64,000 nucleotides of DNA from an uncultured Bacteroidia bacterium (GTDB lineage Bacteria > Bacteroidota > Bacteroidia > Bacteroidales > UBA932): the NCBI GenBank assembly GCA_902797435.1, contig CADBSV010000044.1:117110-181109 (forward strand). Reading direction: 5' to 3'. The notes under the pieces are model-generated. The model was given only the letters and a program-made list of their open reading frames with translations, had not been told where the DNA came from and ran no database searches. Below, in pieces: positions 16,123-24,077 of the stretch; position 1 is the first letter of the stretch; each line of letters starts with the position of its first letter. The translations under genes and the position numbers were made by a program.

Positions 16123-16628
16123 CTCAGGTCGGTTATTATCCATGATTTGTCGAGGGAGGAGACGTCGAAGCGGAAAGCGTCCGCCGATGGCGTGGCTTCC
16201 TCCACTTTGATGCCGCTCGCCTGGAAATCGAAGTCCAGCCCTTCGCTTTCGCTCACTGCCGAGCAGTGGAGGGTGCTCCCGTCGAAACGGAAATCGCGAA
16301 CCTGTCCGGCATAGCTCTTTATCCTTTCCAGGATGGATGGACCGCTCTCCGAAACCACCACTTCCCTGGAGGCATTGTCAACCGTCCAGGTAGTGACTCC
16401 GTCGGAGTAGTTGTCGGTGCCGTTTTCTTTCAGGTGGAACATGTCTCCGCAAAGAACCGCAGTCCCGCTTCCCTTCATCGGGAAATCCCCGCGCAGGGAA
16501 TAGCTGTAGCTGCAGCTCACGGTGCGGCCTTCGCCGAGTATGGCAATGACGTCGCTGATGATGGCGCTCTGCCCCCAGGCGGAGATGCTGAGGACTGCAC
16601 AGACGGCTATTAGTAACGGTCTTTTCAT
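16119..16628 (-). CDS. LolA-like outer-membrane lipoprotein carrier protein
   Basis: The 169-residue protein has a signal peptide (1-19, ending AWGQ). The rest is a beta-rich half-barrel of LolA type: CSYSYSLRGDFPMKGSGTAVLCGDMFHL, then TTWTVDNASREVVV. LolA-like proteins carry lipoproteins across the periplasm, and in Bacteroidota a divergent member often sits next to ftsK, as here. Similarity is by pattern only, so the carrier function is inferred. It overlaps ftsK and addB by ATGA on both sides. Confidence 0.65.
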   Translation of the reverse strand: MKRPLLIAVCAVLSISAWGQSAIISDVIAILGEGRTVSCSYSYSLRGDFPMKGSGTAVLCGDMFHLKENGTDNYSDGVTTWTVDNASREVVVSESGPSILERIKSYAGQVRDFRFDGSTLHCSAVSESEGLDFDFQASGIKVEEATPSADAFRFDVSSLDKSWIITDLR

Positions 16629-19093
16629 TTCAGGTTGTCCAGTATGTTCTGAAGGTCTTCGAGGGTAGGTACAAGAACCGTGCGAGGTTTGCTGCCTTCC
16701 TGCGGGGATACGATTCCCGCCTTCTCGAGCTGGTCCATTACACGGCCGGCCTTGGCATAACCCATGCCCAGACGGCGCTGAAGGTCGGAGGTGCTGCCCT
16801 TCTGGGTGGAAACCACAAGCTGTGCGGCTTCCATGAAGCGCTCGTCAAGCTCTCCCACGTCGCCCACTCCGCCGCTTTCTCCGCTATCGCTCACGTCGGG
16901 CAGATAATACGGGGTGTTGTAGCTCTTCTTGTAGCCTTCCTGCTCTCCGATGAAATCCGTGATGGAGTCGATTTCCTCGCCGCTCACATAGCCGCACTGG
17001 ATGCGTTCGGTGTCGAGTCCTGCGCTCCAGAGCATGTCGCCGCGGCCGATCAGCTTTTCTGCTCCCGGTGCATCGAGGATGGTCATGGAGTCAACCCTGG
17101 AGGCGACCCTGAACGCGATGCGCATTGGGAAGTTGCTCTTGATGATGCCTGAAATGACATCTACCGAAGGCCTCTGGGTTGCGAGAATCACGTGTATGCC
17201 GGCAGCGCGGCCTTTCTGGGCCAGACGGATGATGGAGTTGGTGATGCTCTTGGATGCGGCCCGTACCTCGGGACTGCTGCCTATGGTCATGGTGAGGTCG
17301 GCGTATTCGTCAACCACCGCCACCAGATAGGGGAGGAACCTGTGGCCCTTTTCGGGATTGAGCTTGCGGGCCTTGTATTTCTCGTTGTAGAGGGTGAGCT
17401 TGTTTACGCCTGCATTGCTCAGCAGTTTATAGCGTTCGTCCATCTCTATGCAGAGGCTGCGCAGCACCTTCTCGGCGTCCTTGGGGTTCTTCACGATGGC
17501 CAATTCCTTTTCCTGCTCTTCGTCACCGGCGGTGGGAAGCACGGCGAGATAATGGTGAAGGAGGCTGTTGTAGGCGCTGAATTCCACCATCTTCGGGTCG
17601 ATGAACACGAACTTCAGTTCCGACGGATGCTTGCTGTAGAGAAGCGAGGACACGATGACGTTGAGCCCCACGCTCTTTCCCTGCTTCGTGGCGCCGGCGA
17701 TGAGCAGGTGCGGGGCGTCGGCAAGGTCGAACACCTTCACGTCCTGGGTGATGGTATAGCCAATCGCAACCGGAAGCTCGTATTTGCTGCTACGGAACGT
17801 GTCGCTGTTCAGAAGGTTCTTCAGCGGAACGATGCTCGGGGTGTCGTTGGCCACTTCGATTCCCACCGAGTCGGGAAGGGTGACAACGCGCACGCCCCTT
17901 GCCTTAAGACTGAGGGCTATGTCTTCCTGAAGCTTCTTTATTTCGGAAATCTTGACTCCAGGGGCGGGGTTTACCTTGTAGAGGGTTACGGTGGGGCCTA
18001 TGATGGCCTTCACGTCGGTTACCTCTATGCGGTAGGTCTGCAGGGCTGCGCGGATTTTGTTGTTGTTGCGGGTGAGTTCTTCGTTGCTTACCTCGCGCTT
18101 GGCTCCTGTATGGTCTTCGAGAAGGGAGATGCTCGGGAACTTGTACCAAGGAAGCCCTTCGGGCGGATCCATGCGGTTGTCAATAGGCTTCAGTTCCTTG
18201 ACCTCCTGCTCCAGGGTATCGTCGGTAACGACCTCTATCTTGATGTCATCATTGGCAGGTTGCTCTTCGGGAGGGTCCTGACCCTCCGGGGTTTCCTGCT
18301 CCTCGGGGTCTTTCTGATTCTCGGTGACTTCCTTCTCCTCGGGGGTTTTCTGTTCTTCAGGGGCTTTATGCTCCTCAGTGACTTCCTTCTCCTCGGGGGT
18401 ATTCTGTTCTTCAGGGGCTTTATGCTCCTCAGTGACTTCCTTCTCCTCGGGGGTATTCTCCGGATGCTCCTTTTTCGGGGCTTTTTCTCTTGGGGGCCGG
18501 TTCAGGAGTCCATACAGCCATGTGGTGAACCTCTTTGAAGAGAAGAACAGATAGACTATCAGAAGCAGCAGTGCGAATACCGGGGTCAGCCATTTGCCGA
18601 AAAGGTTGTCGGACCATTCTATGACCTGAGCTCCGAATTCTCCTCCAAGTCCGCCTCCGAAAGCATTCTGGAGACCGGACAGACTGCCGATGCATGCGAG
18701 GATGACGGAAGAAACGAACGCTCCGAAAACTGCAACGAGAGTGGTTTTGAGAAGGGAATAGTGCCAGCGTCCGGCGATGAGCCTCGCGCTCACGGCTCCA
18801 AGCACCACGAGCAGGGCAAGACTTCCGAGCCCGAACAGGCGGCATACCAGCAGATGGCCGGTCTTGTAACCGAGTTTTCCGGCAACGTTGCCGGCTGCCA
18901 CTCCGCTGTCCATCATGGCGGGATTGCTCAGCAGCGACATGTCTTCCTTCCAGTGGAAGAGATAGGATACTATCCCGAGCAGGACAAATACGGCGAGAGC
19001 CGCCACGAGCAGGCCGGCAATTTTGACGGCTATCGCCCGCTCGCTGTCATCCCATTTGCGCCAGAATGCCAGATTTTCCCAGAATTTTCTCAT
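16625..19093 (-). CDS. ftsK: DNA translocase FtsK/SpoIIIE
   Basis: The 822-residue septal translocase moves chromosome termini during division. There are four membrane segments in residues about 20-190, an acidic repeat linker (about 210-280), and a RecA-like motor with Walker A GATKQGKS (about 466-473) and Walker B VVDEYADL (about 592-599). A C-terminal winged-helix gamma domain (LQRRLGMGYAKAGRVMDQLEKAGIV) reads polar DNA signals. The linker holds near-identical 18-residue units built from TPEEKEVTEEHKAPEEQ. ATGA overlaps join it to DUF4290 upstream and the lolA-like gene downstream. Confidence 0.93.
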   Translation of the reverse strand: MRKFWENLAFWRKWDDSERAIAVKIAGLLVAALAVFVLLGIVSYLFHWKEDMSLLSNPAMMDSGVAAGNVAGKLGYKTGHLLVCRLFGLGSLALLVVLGAVSARLIAGRWHYSLLKTTLVAVFGAFVSSVILACIGSLSGLQNAFGGGLGGEFGAQVIEWSDNLFGKWLTPVFALLLLIVYLFFSSKRFTTWLYGLLNRPPREKAPKKEHPENTPEEKEVTEEHKAPEEQNTPEEKEVTEEHKAPEEQKTPEEKEVTENQKDPEEQETPEGQDPPEEQPANDDIKIEVVTDDTLEQEVKELKPIDNRMDPPEGLPWYKFPSISLLEDHTGAKREVSNEELTRNNNKIRAALQTYRIEVTDVKAIIGPTVTLYKVNPAPGVKISEIKKLQEDIALSLKARGVRVVTLPDSVGIEVANDTPSIVPLKNLLNSDTFRSSKYELPVAIGYTITQDVKVFDLADAPHLLIAGATKQGKSVGLNVIVSSLLYSKHPSELKFVFIDPKMVEFSAYNSLLHHYLAVLPTAGDEEQEKELAIVKNPKDAEKVLRSLCIEMDERYKLLSNAGVNKLTLYNEKYKARKLNPEKGHRFLPYLVAVVDEYADLTMTIGSSPEVRAASKSITNSIIRLAQKGRAAGIHVILATQRPSVDVISGIIKSNFPMRIAFRVASRVDSMTILDAPGAEKLIGRGDMLWSAGLDTERIQCGYVSGEEIDSITDFIGEQEGYKKSYNTPYYLPDVSDSGESGGVGDVGELDERFMEAAQLVVSTQKGSTSDLQRRLGMGYAKAGRVMDQLEKAGIVSPQEGSKPRTVLVPTLEDLQNILDNLK
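18270..18466 (-). repeat. 54-bp tandem repeat within ftsK
   Basis: Near-identical 54-bp units start at 18324 and 18378, a partial one starts at 18432, and a degenerate copy lies before 18324. The period is 18 codons, so copy-number change keeps the frame. The units encode an acidic, Pro/Glu/Lys-rich linker between membrane and motor domains. Confidence 0.85.
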
Positions 19094-19798: not shown

Positions 19799-20674
19799 AT
19801 GACAAGAAGTTATAGAGTAGCCGGACATATTTTCTCGTTCGACATCCCGGATGCCCACCCGCTGTGGGGTCAGCTGGCGCAGTACAGGCCTTTCGAGCTT
19901 CCGTCCGCCCAGCCTTCCCTGTTTACTGTGGAGCTGGTGGACAGCCAGCCCGAAATAACCATGGAAAAGGTGTACGGAGGCAGCGAGGAACCTCTCCAGC
20001 CGGTGGTTCTGCTGTATCGCGGCGGGGAATCTTGGGCGTTTGAAATGTCTCCCTGCCAGGGACGTCCGCTCTCGGGGCGGGCCGTGGCGGACAGGTCTTT
20101 CACACGGGCCAGGCTGCAGATTCTCAACCCTTCCGATGCACTTTTCGCGCTTAACAATGCCGCCATGCTCATGTTCGCATTCAGCACGGCATGCCTGAAA
20201 ACGCTCGAAATGCACGCCTCCGTCATCGTAAACGGCGGAAAGGCATACCTGTGGCTGGCAAAGAGCGGCACGGGCAAGAGCACCCATTCGAGGATGTGGC
20301 TGGAGAACATCCCCGGGAGCCGTTTGCTCAACGACGACAACCCGGTGATAAGGGTTATGGAAGACGGTCACGTGGAGGTGTTCGGGTCGCCCTGGAGCGG
20401 AAAGACTCCGTGTTACAGGAACGAACACTATCCGGCCGGGGCCATCTGCGAGATTGTGAGAAACTCCGAAAACCGCATTACACGGAAGACGATATTCTCT
20501 TCATACGCCCTGCTGTACTCTTCGAGTTCGGGCTTCAAATTCGATTCCGCAATGGCGGACGGGCTTCACGAAGCCTATGAGAAGACTGTGGCGGCGGTGC
20601 CCTGCTTCACCCTCGAGTGCCGTCCCGACGCCGATGCCGCGAGGGTGTCTTCCGAAACCCTCCTTGCCCTATGA
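19799..20674 (+). CDS. HPr-kinase-like protein of a putative peptide-modification operon
   Basis: The 291-residue protein resembles the C-terminal kinase domain of HPr kinase/phosphorylase. The P-loop is AKSGTGKST (154-162), followed by LLNDDNPVI (acidic motif) and GSPWSGKTPCY. It lacks the N-terminal half and full architecture of bifunctional HPrK, and no HPr gene is nearby. HPrK-like kinases of this kind occur in some lasso-peptide clusters, where they phosphorylate a precursor. Here it opens a four-gene run joined by ATGA overlaps with a peptidase, a PqqD-like protein and an exporter. A role in modifying a peptide is inferred from that company. Confidence 0.75.
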   Translation: MTRSYRVAGHIFSFDIPDAHPLWGQLAQYRPFELPSAQPSLFTVELVDSQPEITMEKVYGGSEEPLQPVVLLYRGGESWAFEMSPCQGRPLSGRAVADRSFTRARLQILNPSDALFALNNAAMLMFAFSTACLKTLEMHASVIVNGGKAYLWLAKSGTGKSTHSRMWLENIPGSRLLNDDNPVIRVMEDGHVEVFGSPWSGKTPCYRNEHYPAGAICEIVRNSENRITRKTIFSSYALLYSSSSGFKFDSAMADGLHEAYEKTVAAVPCFTLECRPDADAARVSSETLLAL

Positions 20675-21138
20675 CTCCAACCCGGATAATCCTGCCCAAC
20701 GAGGTAATGCTCGGAAGCGTCAAGGAACTCCTTGCCGAAGGCAATACCGTGGTTATCATGACAAAAGGATTGAGCATGCTTCCCTTCATCGAAGGCAAAA
20801 GGGACAGCGTCCTTCTGGAAAAGCGCGCCAGCGTATCTCCCGGAGACATAGTCCTTGCCGAAATCCGTCCCGGGTCCTATGTCCTTCACAGGGTGAGGGC
20901 TGTCACGGGCGGCGGGAAGGTGACCTTGCAGGGAGACGGCAATTACCGCGGGCAGGAGAGCTGCCTTGTGGGGAATGTCGTCGGCACCGTAAAGGCCATA
21001 CAGACGCCGGGCCGCCCCGACAAAGACCCCGCATCGGCTTCCGAAATGCGCCGCTGGCGCTTTTGGGCAGCCCTTCCGTCCTGGTTCAGGAGGTATTATC
21101 TTGCCATTTACAGACGAATAAAACACATTACTATATGA
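20671..21138 (+). CDS. S24/S26-type peptidase, Ser/His signal-peptidase-like
   Basis: The 155-residue protein has the signal-peptidase pattern: GLSMLPFI with the nucleophile Ser35, GDIVLAE, then VLHRV with His73 and VTLQGDGN. His in place of the general-base Lys is the pattern of the archaeal/ER and SipW types rather than bacterial LepB. There is no clear N-terminal membrane anchor; the C terminus is basic and aromatic (RRWRFWAALPSWFRRYY) and could lie on the membrane. It is coupled to both neighbours by ATGA. It would suit removal of a leader peptide, which is an inference. Confidence 0.75.
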   Translation: MTPTRIILPNEVMLGSVKELLAEGNTVVIMTKGLSMLPFIEGKRDSVLLEKRASVSPGDIVLAEIRPGSYVLHRVRAVTGGGKVTLQGDGNYRGQESCLVGNVVGTVKAIQTPGRPDKDPASASEMRRWRFWAALPSWFRRYYLAIYRRIKHITI

Positions 21139-21404
21139 GAATCAAAGAAGGTTTCAAGCTCCGTTCCCTCCTGGGGGAGCATATTGTTACCGGCGAAGGG
21201 CCTTCGCAGGTTAATTTCAACAAGATGGTTTCGCTCAATTCCACGGCCGCCTACCTTTGGGAAGCGGTGGAAGGAAAGGATTTTTCGGTAGAGGATCTGA
21301 AGAAACTCCTTCTGGACGAATATGAAGTGGATGAGCAGACGGCTTCCAAGGATGCCGCCGCCATTGCTGCCAAATGGGCAGAAATAGGGCTGACAGAGGA
21401 ATGA
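21135..21404 (+). CDS. PqqD-like RiPP recognition element protein
   Basis: This 89-residue protein has the PqqD fold pattern: LRSLLGEHIVTGEG, an N-terminal beta hairpin, then NSTAAYLWEAVEGKDFSVEDLKKLLLDEYEVDEQTASKD and a final helix. Stand-alone PqqD proteins bind leader peptides of ribosomally made, modified peptides and present them to enzymes. No core peptide gene is visible next to it. It is joined to its neighbours by ATGA overlaps at 21135 and 21401. Confidence 0.82.
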   Translation: MRIKEGFKLRSLLGEHIVTGEGPSQVNFNKMVSLNSTAAYLWEAVEGKDFSVEDLKKLLLDEYEVDEQTASKDAAAIAAKWAEIGLTEE

Positions 21405-23035
21405 GGCCGCTGAAGGACTGTTTCCGGGGGCTGATGAAAACCCTGTATCCGGTGCGCTGGAGGGTGCTTGTAAGCAGTCTCCTGGGGCTGGTGCAGGTGG
21501 CTCTTTCGCTGCTTTTCGTATGGTACAGCAAAAGGGTGGTTGACCTTGCCACGGGTGTGGCCGAAGGGTCTCTTCTCAGCGGGGTCTGCTTCTTTATCGG
21601 TATTCTGTTGCTGCAGATAGCCGTGCGCACCGCATCCCGTTACTGGGAGGGATATATAGTGGTGGAAGCCCAGAACCGGGGCCGTGCAGCCGTGTTCTCC
21701 AAGGTTATGCACAGCATCTGGAAGGGCAAGGACCGTTTCCACAGCGCCGATACCATCAACCGTCTCGAGGAGGACATTCGCGTGGTGGTCGATTTTATCT
21801 GCGTTTCCCTTCCCGGGGTGTTTGTCACCGTGTGCCAGTTCATAGCTGCATGCATCTTCCTTTTCTCACTTTCCCCAGAACTGGGCTGGATACTGGTGTT
21901 CATAATGCCTGTAGCAGTGATTGGAAGCCGCATGTTCTTCAGCAAGATGCGCTCCCTTACCAACGATATCCGCCATGGAGACAGCCTGGTGCAGGCCCAC
22001 ATGCAGGAGAATATCCAGCACCGCATAGTGGTTCGCACCATGGGAAGCACCGAAGATGTCCTGGAGCAGCTGGATGACATTCAGGACGACGTGCGCAGCA
22101 AGACCCTTGTCAGGCTCGGATACGCCGCCTTCTCACGCACTTTCCTGCAGCTCGGGTTCATGCTCGGCTATGCCGCGGCTTTCGTGTGGAGCATCTACGG
22201 GCTTAGCAAGGGCACCGTCACCTATGGCCTTATGACCGCATTCCTGCAGCTCGTGGGGCAGGTGCAGCGTCCGGTGGCCGATCTGGCTACACAGATACCG
22301 TCTTTCATCAGGGCCCTTTCGAGCCAGGACAGGCTCATGGAGCTCTCGGAGCAGATGCAGGAGCAGACGGGAGACGATATCCGACTCGAAGGAGCTCCCG
22401 GAATAAGGCTGGAGAACCTTTCTTTCCGTTACGAAGATTCTGCTGCGCCGGTGTTCGAAGGGCTCTCCTTCGATTTCCGTCCCGGAACGATGACCGCGAT
22501 CCTCGGCCCTACCGGCAGCGGGAAGAGCACCCTGGTGAGGGTGATAATGAACCTGCTCAAGCCATCGGAAGGCAGCGTAATGCTTTATGGCCCGGACGCC
22601 TGCATCCCTTCCGGCCCCGGCACGCTCTGCAATTTCATGTATGTCCCGCAGGGCAATTCCCTCATGAGCGGAAGCATACGGCAGAACCTGCTGCTTGCGG
22701 CGCCGGAGGCTTCTGATTCACAGCTCCTTGAAGCCCTGCACCAGGCTTCCGCCGATTTTGTAAAGGACCTCCCCGAAGGGCTCGACACCCTGTGTGCCGA
22801 AGTGGGGCAGGGACTGAGCGAGGGGCAGGCCCAGAGGATAGCGATTGCAAGGGCACTGCTGCGTCCCGGAGGAATACTCGTCCTCGACGAGGCCACCAGT
22901 GCGCTCGACGCCGAAACGGAGGCTGAACTTCTGGAGAACCTTGCGCGGAAATATCATGGCAGCAAGACCATACTCTGCATCACCCACAGGCCGGCCGCTA
23001 CCGACTATGCCGACCTGACCCTTAAAATGGCTTGA
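21401..23035 (+). CDS. ABC transporter, fused permease and ATPase
   Basis: This 544-residue half-transporter has six membrane helices (about 15-300) and an ATPase domain: Walker A GPTGSGKS (369-376), signature LSEGQAQR (Glu in place of the second Gly of LSGGQ) and Walker B ILVLDEATSALD. It has no C39 peptidase domain, so cleavage would fall to the S26-type peptidase two genes upstream. The ATG at 21401 forms ATGA with the PqqD stop; an ATG 27 nt upstream is less likely. It is the probable exporter of whatever the operon makes. Confidence 0.85.
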   Translation: MRPLKDCFRGLMKTLYPVRWRVLVSSLLGLVQVALSLLFVWYSKRVVDLATGVAEGSLLSGVCFFIGILLLQIAVRTASRYWEGYIVVEAQNRGRAAVFSKVMHSIWKGKDRFHSADTINRLEEDIRVVVDFICVSLPGVFVTVCQFIAACIFLFSLSPELGWILVFIMPVAVIGSRMFFSKMRSLTNDIRHGDSLVQAHMQENIQHRIVVRTMGSTEDVLEQLDDIQDDVRSKTLVRLGYAAFSRTFLQLGFMLGYAAAFVWSIYGLSKGTVTYGLMTAFLQLVGQVQRPVADLATQIPSFIRALSSQDRLMELSEQMQEQTGDDIRLEGAPGIRLENLSFRYEDSAAPVFEGLSFDFRPGTMTAILGPTGSGKSTLVRVIMNLLKPSEGSVMLYGPDACIPSGPGTLCNFMYVPQGNSLMSGSIRQNLLLAAPEASDSQLLEALHQASADFVKDLPEGLDTLCAEVGQGLSEGQAQRIAIARALLRPGGILVLDEATSALDAETEAELLENLARKYHGSKTILCITHRPAATDYADLTLKMA

Positions 23036-23060: not shown

Positions 23061-24077
23061 ATGAAAACAATTTCGAAATACATTTTTGCAATGATGGTCT
23101 CGGGGCTCGTGCTCCTGCCCGGTTGCAAGAAAGACGACGAAGACAGCACGCCTGCGCTGTCGGGAAAACTCAGAATAACTTCGATTCCATCGTACGTCCT
23201 CAAGGGCGAGGTGTATCATATCACTGCTTCGGGGCTTTACAAGGGAAGCGACAGGGCGGACAGTCTTGTCGGGTACCGCTTGTACAATCCTTTGAAGTCG
23301 GCTTATGATACTCTTCGCAAAGAAGGCGAAAAGGGGCCGGCGGAGTATGATTTTGTGGTTTCGAGCGATTCTCTCGATTCTTTCTCGATAGGTGTTTACG
23401 CCTATGCGTCAGGCTATAGCGGCTCTTATGCATCGGGGACTTTTACGATAGTCAATCCTTCCCTTGACACTCTGAAAGGCTCTCTTCGCAGGCATCCTTT
23501 CCATTACGAGGTCAACACCTTCTTCTTCGATTCCCGCAGTTCGGACCCATACTATGCATCTTCCGATGCCTCAGGGGCATGGATGCTGCAGAATCTGGCC
23601 TGGGACGGCTCCGGCTACTCCTATGAGGAGGCGGAAGCTATGAATTACATCGCGGGAAGGTTCTACAACTGGGAAGAGGCAGCCACTGCCTGCCCCGCCG
23701 GATGGCGTCTTCCGTCCGATTCCGATTTTGTTTCCCTGGCCGGCACCGGAACGGCAGGGGAGACCATAAGCGGGGCCGCCGGAGCACTCAAGGGAAATGT
23801 ATATTTCAACGGCAGCGCAATGTGGCCCTACATCAGCAGTTCCATCGAAATGGACAACGGGACATTCTTTACCGCAATGCCATGGGGATATCTCACCGTG
23901 TCGGGCCCGCAGCTCAGTTTCAAGGGTTACGGCGAGATGGCGGTTTTCTGGACTTCGGATTCTCCGGATGCCGAAACGGCTCTGGTGAGGTACATGAGGG
24001 CCGATTCCAACGACATTTTCGTGCAGGCCATGGACAAGAAGTCCTTCTACGCTTCCGTCCGCTGCGTCAAAGAATAA
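23061..24077 (+). CDS. FISUMP-domain lipoprotein
   Basis: The 338-residue protein has a lipoprotein signal (residues 1-22, LLPG-C22). After a beta-rich N-terminal half comes a FISUMP domain (about 160-338): GRFYNWEEAATACPAGWRLPS, then FWTSDSPD and the closing SVRCVKE. FISUMP domains are common in surface lipoproteins of Bacteroidota and Fibrobacter; their function is not established. It begins 25 nt after the ABC gene, with a weak GATCTTTG box at 23034-23041, so it may or may not belong to that operon. Confidence 0.82.
   Translation: MKTISKYIFAMMVSGLVLLPGCKKDDEDSTPALSGKLRITSIPSYVLKGEVYHITASGLYKGSDRADSLVGYRLYNPLKSAYDTLRKEGEKGPAEYDFVVSSDSLDSFSIGVYAYASGYSGSYASGTFTIVNPSLDTLKGSLRRHPFHYEVNTFFFDSRSSDPYYASSDASGAWMLQNLAWDGSGYSYEEAEAMNYIAGRFYNWEEAATACPAGWRLPSDSDFVSLAGTGTAGETISGAAGALKGNVYFNGSAMWPYISSSIEMDNGTFFTAMPWGYLTVSGPQLSFKGYGEMAVFWTSDSPDAETALVRYMRADSNDIFVQAMDKKSFYASVRCVKE

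Follow-up and report, generated by a model that had tools for sequence, protein, structure and literature searches.

A probable peptide phosphorylation and export operon in Bacteroidales, and its candidate precursors encoded beside fimbrillin-like lipoproteins

We analysed a window of 64,000 nucleotides, the whole stretch of Bacteroidales DNA (contig CADBSV010000044.1) to which all coordinates below refer unless a locus is named, and describe an operon within it (19799-23035) that carries the genes of a candidate peptide maturation system. The window belongs to a metagenome-assembled genome of 1.87 Mb that is 80% complete and in which one PqqD was found. The operon comprises the following genes:

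19799..20674, + strand: HprK-like kinase (LppK-like), 291 aa, identified by TIGR04352 and conserved motifs
20671..21138, + strand: relative of S26/SipW-like signal peptidases (LppS-like), 155 aa, with Ser35, His73, and Asp89, identified by PF00717 and TIGR02228 below cut-off
21135..21404, + strand: PqqD-type recognition element (RRE; LppB-like) for ribosomally synthesized and post-translationally modified peptides (RiPPs), 89 aa, with Asn35, Tyr63, and Asp73, identified by PF05402
21401..23035, + strand: ABC exporter (LppD-like), membrane and ATPase domains fused and no peptidase domain, identified by PF00664 and PF00005

The four genes are joined by ATGA overlaps at 20671, 21135, and 21401. 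A first-pass annotation, made from the sequence alone, had described these genes, motifs, and overlaps, and open reading frame (ORF), motif, and family scans confirmed them. It had also described an exporter lacking a protease domain of its own, in agreement with the domains that were found. The combination has a precedent in the Linear Polyphosphorylated Peptides (LPP), RiPPs of Bacillota represented by the lpp cluster of Paenibacillus alginolyticus and published in May 2026 (PMC13381572). The LPP set includes an HprK kinase, a SpI leader peptidase, a discrete RRE, an NTP transferase, an MsbA-like exporter, and the precursor, and phosphorylation and cleavage of the peptide have been demonstrated for this Bacillota counterpart (PMC13381572).

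The individual proteins display different degrees of similarity to known families. The kinase is a weak relative of HprK (NCBIfam TIGR04352 HprK_rel_A, E 7e-5, with 22 bits where the cut-off is 200) in which the motifs SGTGKST, NDD, and GSPWSGK are present. The peptidase gene was taken from the ATG at 20671, the listed ORF opening at a GTG at 20617. Its product is S24/S26-like, with matches to PF00717 (E 6e-4) and TIGR02228 (E 2e-5) that each fall under the cut-off, and no membrane anchor was apparent by eye. The PqqD gene sits inside a longer listed ORF, and its protein matches PF05402 above the cut-off (E 2e-14). The exporter carries Walker A, LSEGQ, and Walker B motifs and scored 222 bits against TIGR02203 MsbA, under the cut-off of that model. 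An AlphaFold2 model of the PqqD protein (pLDDT 88.9) had as its top matches the complexes of lasso-peptide B1 proteins with leaders (5v1u, 5v1v, and 6jx3). Meanwhile, the model of the peptidase (pLDDT 93.7) matched LexA/S24 domains first and signal peptidases lower. Sequence searches of the PDB returned nothing significant for the PqqD protein (best E 0.074) or the peptidase (best E 0.15).

Among 199 genomes of the family, the kinase was found in 82, one of which is that of the window. A further 29 kinase loci came from named records, all of them Bacteroidota, in a search reaching close relatives only. The closest named relatives of the window's genome are Bacteroidales, with kinases 60-73% identical, and the titles of many named relatives mention gut or rumen samples; some give no source. 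We examined 70 loci, the window among them, of which 57 had at least 2.5 kb of upstream and at least 4.5 kb of downstream flank. A gene counted as a neighbour if it shared the strand of the kinase and was no more than 6 kb away from it, and the exporter was counted as an ABC exporter similar to that of the window. By this measure, the peptidase is near the kinase in 48/57 loci, PqqD in 52/57, the exporter in 42/57, and all three in 39/57; the other 18 do not keep the complete set. The order kinase, peptidase, PqqD, (nucleotidyltransferase), exporter was retained in 33/57. The kinases of the loci are mostly distinct (seven pairs with at least 90% identity among 68 compared), and the conservation of the set is not due to chance. 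The flanking gene families differ between locus groups, and therefore the four genes form a unit. Regular separation of the four genes, which the first-pass annotation had considered damaging to its proposal, was not seen.

The residues expected to matter are also conserved. The kinase residues SGxGKST, N178, D180, G196, P198, and G201 are invariant among 20 aligned sequences, as are S35, H73, and D89 of the peptidase among 19. Meanwhile, D73 and Y63 of the PqqD protein are invariant and N35 is kept in at least 90% of 21 sequences. A fifth gene is associated with the set at the level of genomes: a PF14907 nucleotidyltransferase (LppN-like) was present in 69/82 kinase-positive and 4/117 kinase-negative genomes of the family, and only 11/57 loci have it at a distance of at most 6 kb from the kinase. 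Some loci depart from the common layout. In L088 and L090 (genomes G034 and G052, of one genus), the kinase reads as the C-terminal part of a single ORF of 725-728 aa whose N-terminus looks like IspG/GcpE by eye. RelB/DinJ-like and PIN-like ORFs, also named by eye, stand between the peptidase and the kinase at L047:7248-7974, which suggests a toxin-antitoxin insertion. At L049:7577-8572, the peptidase gene is flanked by two PqqD copies, as if there were two recognition elements per machine.

The first-pass annotation had noted no visible precursor peptide at the operon and had proposed that the substrate is encoded elsewhere. Indeed, a search of the window at E 0.1 turned up no ORF resembling a precursor, either inside the operon or beside it. 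A search among homologous loci for a small ORF that co-occurs with the machine, as that annotation had suggested, did yield a family of candidate precursors with a YxxP leader motif. The family emerged when the small ORFs located near the operons were compared all against all; a loose regular expression for YxxP ORFs gave mostly noise and was abandoned as a route to precursors. In the window's genome the peptide genes are unlinked to the operon, and in some relatives a YxxP peptide gene adjoins the kinase. A locus from another family of the order links substrate and machine directly: the peptide gene at L236:14846-14965 precedes the matched part of the kinase by 42 bases.

From 94 rows in 92 loci, the removal of duplicates and of one poor row left 90 unique peptides of 35-84 aa, with start codons chosen by the analyst. 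The invariance of Tyr and Pro was a requirement of the filter, and other conserved positions were favoured by the profile used to find the peptides; with this reservation, Glu stands at Tyr+13 in 76/90 peptides, Ile or Phe at +16 in 81/90, Cys or Ala at +17 in 76/90, and Ser at +19 in 73/90, with Ser anywhere from +18 to +20 in 89/90. All 90 cores, counted from 17 residues past the first Pro, bear a net negative charge. Trp occurs within the last six residues in 53/90 peptides against 23 expected after shuffling. When 65 of the peptides were scanned against Pfam and NCBIfam, no model matched more than one peptide (best E 0.02). The family is thus one for which neither Pfam nor NCBIfam has a model.

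The distribution of these peptides follows that of the kinase. With a profile of 13 members and matches accepted at E <=0.02, peptides were detected in 72/199 genomes of the family: 66/82 kinase-positive and 6/117 kinase-negative ones (Fisher 6e-30, an indicative value only). After exclusion of the 11 genomes behind the model and of one near twin, the counts were 54/70 and 6/117. Within the window's genus, peptides were found in 14/15 kinase-positive and 0/4 kinase-negative genomes (six of the 14 being behind the model and one being the twin). The contrast extends to a sample of 295 genomes of the order, searched with a 65-member profile and with a close kinase defined by the analyst's cut of >140 bits. 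Here, peptides occurred in 11/18 genomes with a close kinase and in 4/277 others, one of these four having a distant kinase; without two genomes behind the model, the figures were 9/16 and 4/277. In a sample of 247 genomes of the phylum, one genome beyond the window's own had peptides (six of them), and it was also the only other with close kinases (two), while none were detected in the seven genomes with distant kinases. The density of peptides near kinases (13 peptides, 11 of 40 kinase-centred loci) was given no weight as a test, since the family had been discovered in those surroundings.

The peptide genes are paired with genes for surface lipoproteins. A protein with a lipobox starts between about -70 and +500 bases from the peptide stop in 75/90 cases, with a median gap of 12 bases and some overlaps; the pairing script favoured lipobox genes where several lay in range. 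Of the remaining 15 peptides, 11 lack a downstream gene in view, and in four cases that gene has no detected lipobox. A profile from the 75 lipoproteins, rescored with default filters, revealed a common N-terminal domain in 69/75 at E <1e-3. The notion that this domain is uncatalogued was rejected, as Pfam scans of the N-terminal stretches of 21 lipoproteins matched five to PF13149 (Mfa_like_1, 'Fimbrillin-like', best E 1.5e-18); the other 16 gave no Pfam family at E 0.01 except for one weak stray match. When whole lipoproteins were scanned, Pfam at its cut-offs named only C-terminal parts (BspA leucine-rich repeats and BACON) and NCBIfam named 0/21. A PDB search with the domain profile gave no significant match. 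Among 949 ORFs of at least 110 aa at the operon loci, nine carry the domain and 8/9 have a peptide directly upstream, several of these eight peptides being ones that defined the peptide family.

The window's genome encodes 23 lipoproteins with the domain, three of which are in the profile. About 12 of the 23 have a clear YxxP peptide directly upstream: a strict script accepted 14/23, and two of the accepted ORFs (L264 and L270) resemble the tails of longer genes. As a control, the script accepted 17/879 other genes, of which six (L064, L069, L072, L093, L094, and L100) are members of the peptide family. These 12 peptides, six of them also found by the profiles, offer a less biased view of the leader, and 10/12 have Ser at +18 to +20, where about 25% would be expected per peptide from Ser content. 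A codon comparison of 12 peptide pairs gave small, mixed counts and was not used. In the few lipoproteins of this genome that were scanned, the C-terminal parts vary (BspA leucine-rich repeats, BACON), as if one surface anchor bore different tips.

Across the family, the lipoprotein domain was found in 95/199 genomes. Among these, peptides were detected in 62/75 genomes with the kinase and 4/20 without it (p 3e-7). Hence, the peptides track the maturation machine more than they track the lipoproteins.

Based on these findings, we propose that this operon encodes the core machinery with which an LPP-like RiPP pathway of Bacteroidales matures and exports its peptides, the substrates being encoded elsewhere, a reading to which we assign a probability of about 0.8. 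Its proposed mechanism draws on the Bacillota system, in which the kinase adds several phosphates to Ser3 of the core and the SpI peptidase cleaves only with the RRE (PMC13381572). By analogy, the PqqD protein would bind the YxxP leader of precursors encoded at other sites of the genome, the HprK-like kinase would phosphorylate the conserved Ser found about 19 residues beyond the Tyr, and the SipW-like peptidase would remove the leader by cleaving a few residues ahead of this Ser. The exporter may then carry the acidic core across the inner membrane to the periplasm. The PF14907 nucleotidyltransferase, found in most sampled kinase-bearing genomes, probably elaborates the phosphate, and the peptide, to judge from gene order, probably acts with or on the lipoprotein encoded just downstream. 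The modify-cleave-export set with a distant substrate of the first-pass annotation is supported by the unlinked peptide family co-occurring with the kinase.

Several observations weigh against this proposal. The peptide family was discovered beside kinases, no peptide was found in 16/82 kinase-positive genomes, and peptides were found in six kinase-negative ones. The genomes are related, so that the Fisher values overstate their independence. The contrast among genomes with at least three such lipoproteins is weak (43/48 against 4/7, p 0.055). In addition, PF14907 was not found in the window's own genome, of which 80% is represented, and the peptides share only part of the LPP leader motif (PMC13381572): they keep YxxP and the Ser (one residue later), and HQ and FET are replaced.

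Three other explanations were considered. The small ORFs could serve the lipoprotein genes as leaders for regulation or translation coupling and be unrelated to the operon, which would then act on some other substrate. Their position, a median of 12 bases upstream of these genes and at times overlapping them, is what such leaders would show, and no such ORF lies near the window's operon. We nevertheless regard this as very unlikely, since the peptides follow the kinase among genomes that have the lipoprotein domain (though with p 0.055 at three or more genes). Moreover, genomes G183 and G189, of the window's genus, are rich in these lipoproteins (13 and 14), and neither kinase nor peptides were detected in them, and YxxP is already known as a leader motif bound by RREs (PMC13381572).

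A second possibility is that the kinase, PqqD, and nucleotidyltransferase form a capsule or exopolysaccharide module that modifies a polysaccharide-linked product instead of peptides. Loci L063, L064, L070, L072, and L073 do have these three genes in a cluster with glycosyltransferase and Wza/Wzc-like genes (names assigned by eye), and Bacillota LPP loci likewise occur within capsule loci (PMC13381572). But each of these five loci also holds a YxxP peptide, and the Wzc-like family c16 is near the set in only 6/70 loci (those five and L071), though the other neighbours were mostly unannotated; we consider a polysaccharide product highly improbable. Least credible to us is a decayed or tailoring-only lasso-peptide locus with its cyclase and B2 protease encoded elsewhere. 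Paeninodin-like lasso loci typically contain HprK, PqqD, and a nucleotidyltransferase (PMC7533575, PMC13381572), and, as stated above, lasso B1 proteins are the best matches of the PqqD model. However, an S26-like peptidase with conserved catalytic residues occupies the place of B2, and no cyclase was found among the seven window proteins scanned or spotted by eye in the printed loci (PF00733 was not searched genome-wide).

If the LPP-like reading of the operon holds, one shared phosphopeptide factory might serve at least a dozen peptide-lipoprotein pairs in each genome, and the acidic peptides might be matched partners of the lipoproteins (a covalent cap, a ligand, or an assembly factor) and not free antibiotics. 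We offer this idea tentatively, and doubt it somewhat more than we believe it. If true, it would represent a structural use of RiPP chemistry in the construction of the cell surface. The location of many substrates before fimbrillin-like lipoprotein genes is a gene-level hint at the possible role of LPP-type peptides; many named relatives of these bacteria are from animal guts. These findings also imply that a search confined to gene clusters can overlook pathways with unlinked substrates.

One lipoprotein gene directly follows the operon, starting 25 bases after the exporter:

23061..24077, + strand: FISUMP-domain lipoprotein, identified by PF09603 (E 4e-20)

This gene also adjoins the operon in six close relatives (L032, L033, L036, L037, L038, and L049), and it is possibly an accessory or surface partner of the operon. 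Its membership in the fimbrillin-like domain family described above is hardly supported (1.7 bits, E 0.013). On the other side of the operon, the translation of an FtsK-like protein at 16625-19093 displays tandem EEKEVTEEHKAPEEQ-type repeats in its linker.

The closest known system is that of the LPPs. Common to both are an HprK kinase, a SpI/SipW-like peptidase, a discrete RRE, and an MsbA-like exporter, and an NTP transferase is also present in most kinase-positive Bacteroidales relatives, as in LPP loci (PMC13381572). Further likenesses are the YxxP leader, a Ser near the leader end, the lack of a visible cyclase in the set, and polysaccharide genes near some loci (PMC13381572). The catalytic residues can be paired by motif and order, without direct alignment: S35, H73, and D89 of the peptidase with S29, H68, and D93 of LppS (PMC13381572). 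Likewise, by spacing only, N35 and D73 of the PqqD protein agree within one residue with Asn33 and Asp70 of LppB, which hold the YxxP motif, and Y63-D73 are spaced as Y60-D70 (PMC13381572).

There are also differences. The LPP leader motif is YxxPxVLxHQxIxFETxxS, with Ser at Tyr+18 (PMC13381572), and in the Bacteroidales peptides the pattern of E at +13, I/F at +16, and C/A at +17 replaces its HQ and FET. The LPP precursor lies in or near the cluster (PMC13381572), whereas the Bacteroidales precursors are mostly unlinked, occur in many copies in a genome, and have lipoprotein genes as partners. LPPs are described as restricted to Bacillota, with some of their loci inside capsule loci (PMC13381572), whereas the 29 named relatives here, from a search of close relatives, are Bacteroidota. 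The LPP set has an NTP transferase, and none was found in the window's incomplete genome. Because the full precursor motif, the position of the precursor, and the phylum do not fit, the Bacteroidales set is not filed as an LPP member, although it probably works like one. Phosphorylation, cleavage, and binding of peptides by this operon are inferred from the LPPs of Bacillota, for which the authors give neither a final product nor a biological role (PMC13381572).

Two other systems share parts with the operon. Phosphorylated lasso-peptide loci of the paeninodin type likewise have an HprK kinase, a PqqD-type B1 protein, and a nucleotidyltransferase, but they have WxxP where YxxP occurs here and a B2 protease in place of the S26-like peptidase (PMC7533575, PMC13381572); neither a macrolactam cyclase nor a B2 protease was among the seven window proteins scanned. 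The PqqD of pyrroloquinoline quinone (PQQ) biosynthesis has the same RRE fold and PF05402 family as the operon's protein, but no PQQ gene was among those seven proteins, the only part of the genome searched for it. The machine itself is of a known, LPP-like kind, and in the literature searched only PMC13381572 was seen to describe LPPs. As far as the literature was searched, what is new is its presence in Bacteroidota, its unlinked multi-copy substrates, and their pairing with fimbrillin-like lipoproteins.

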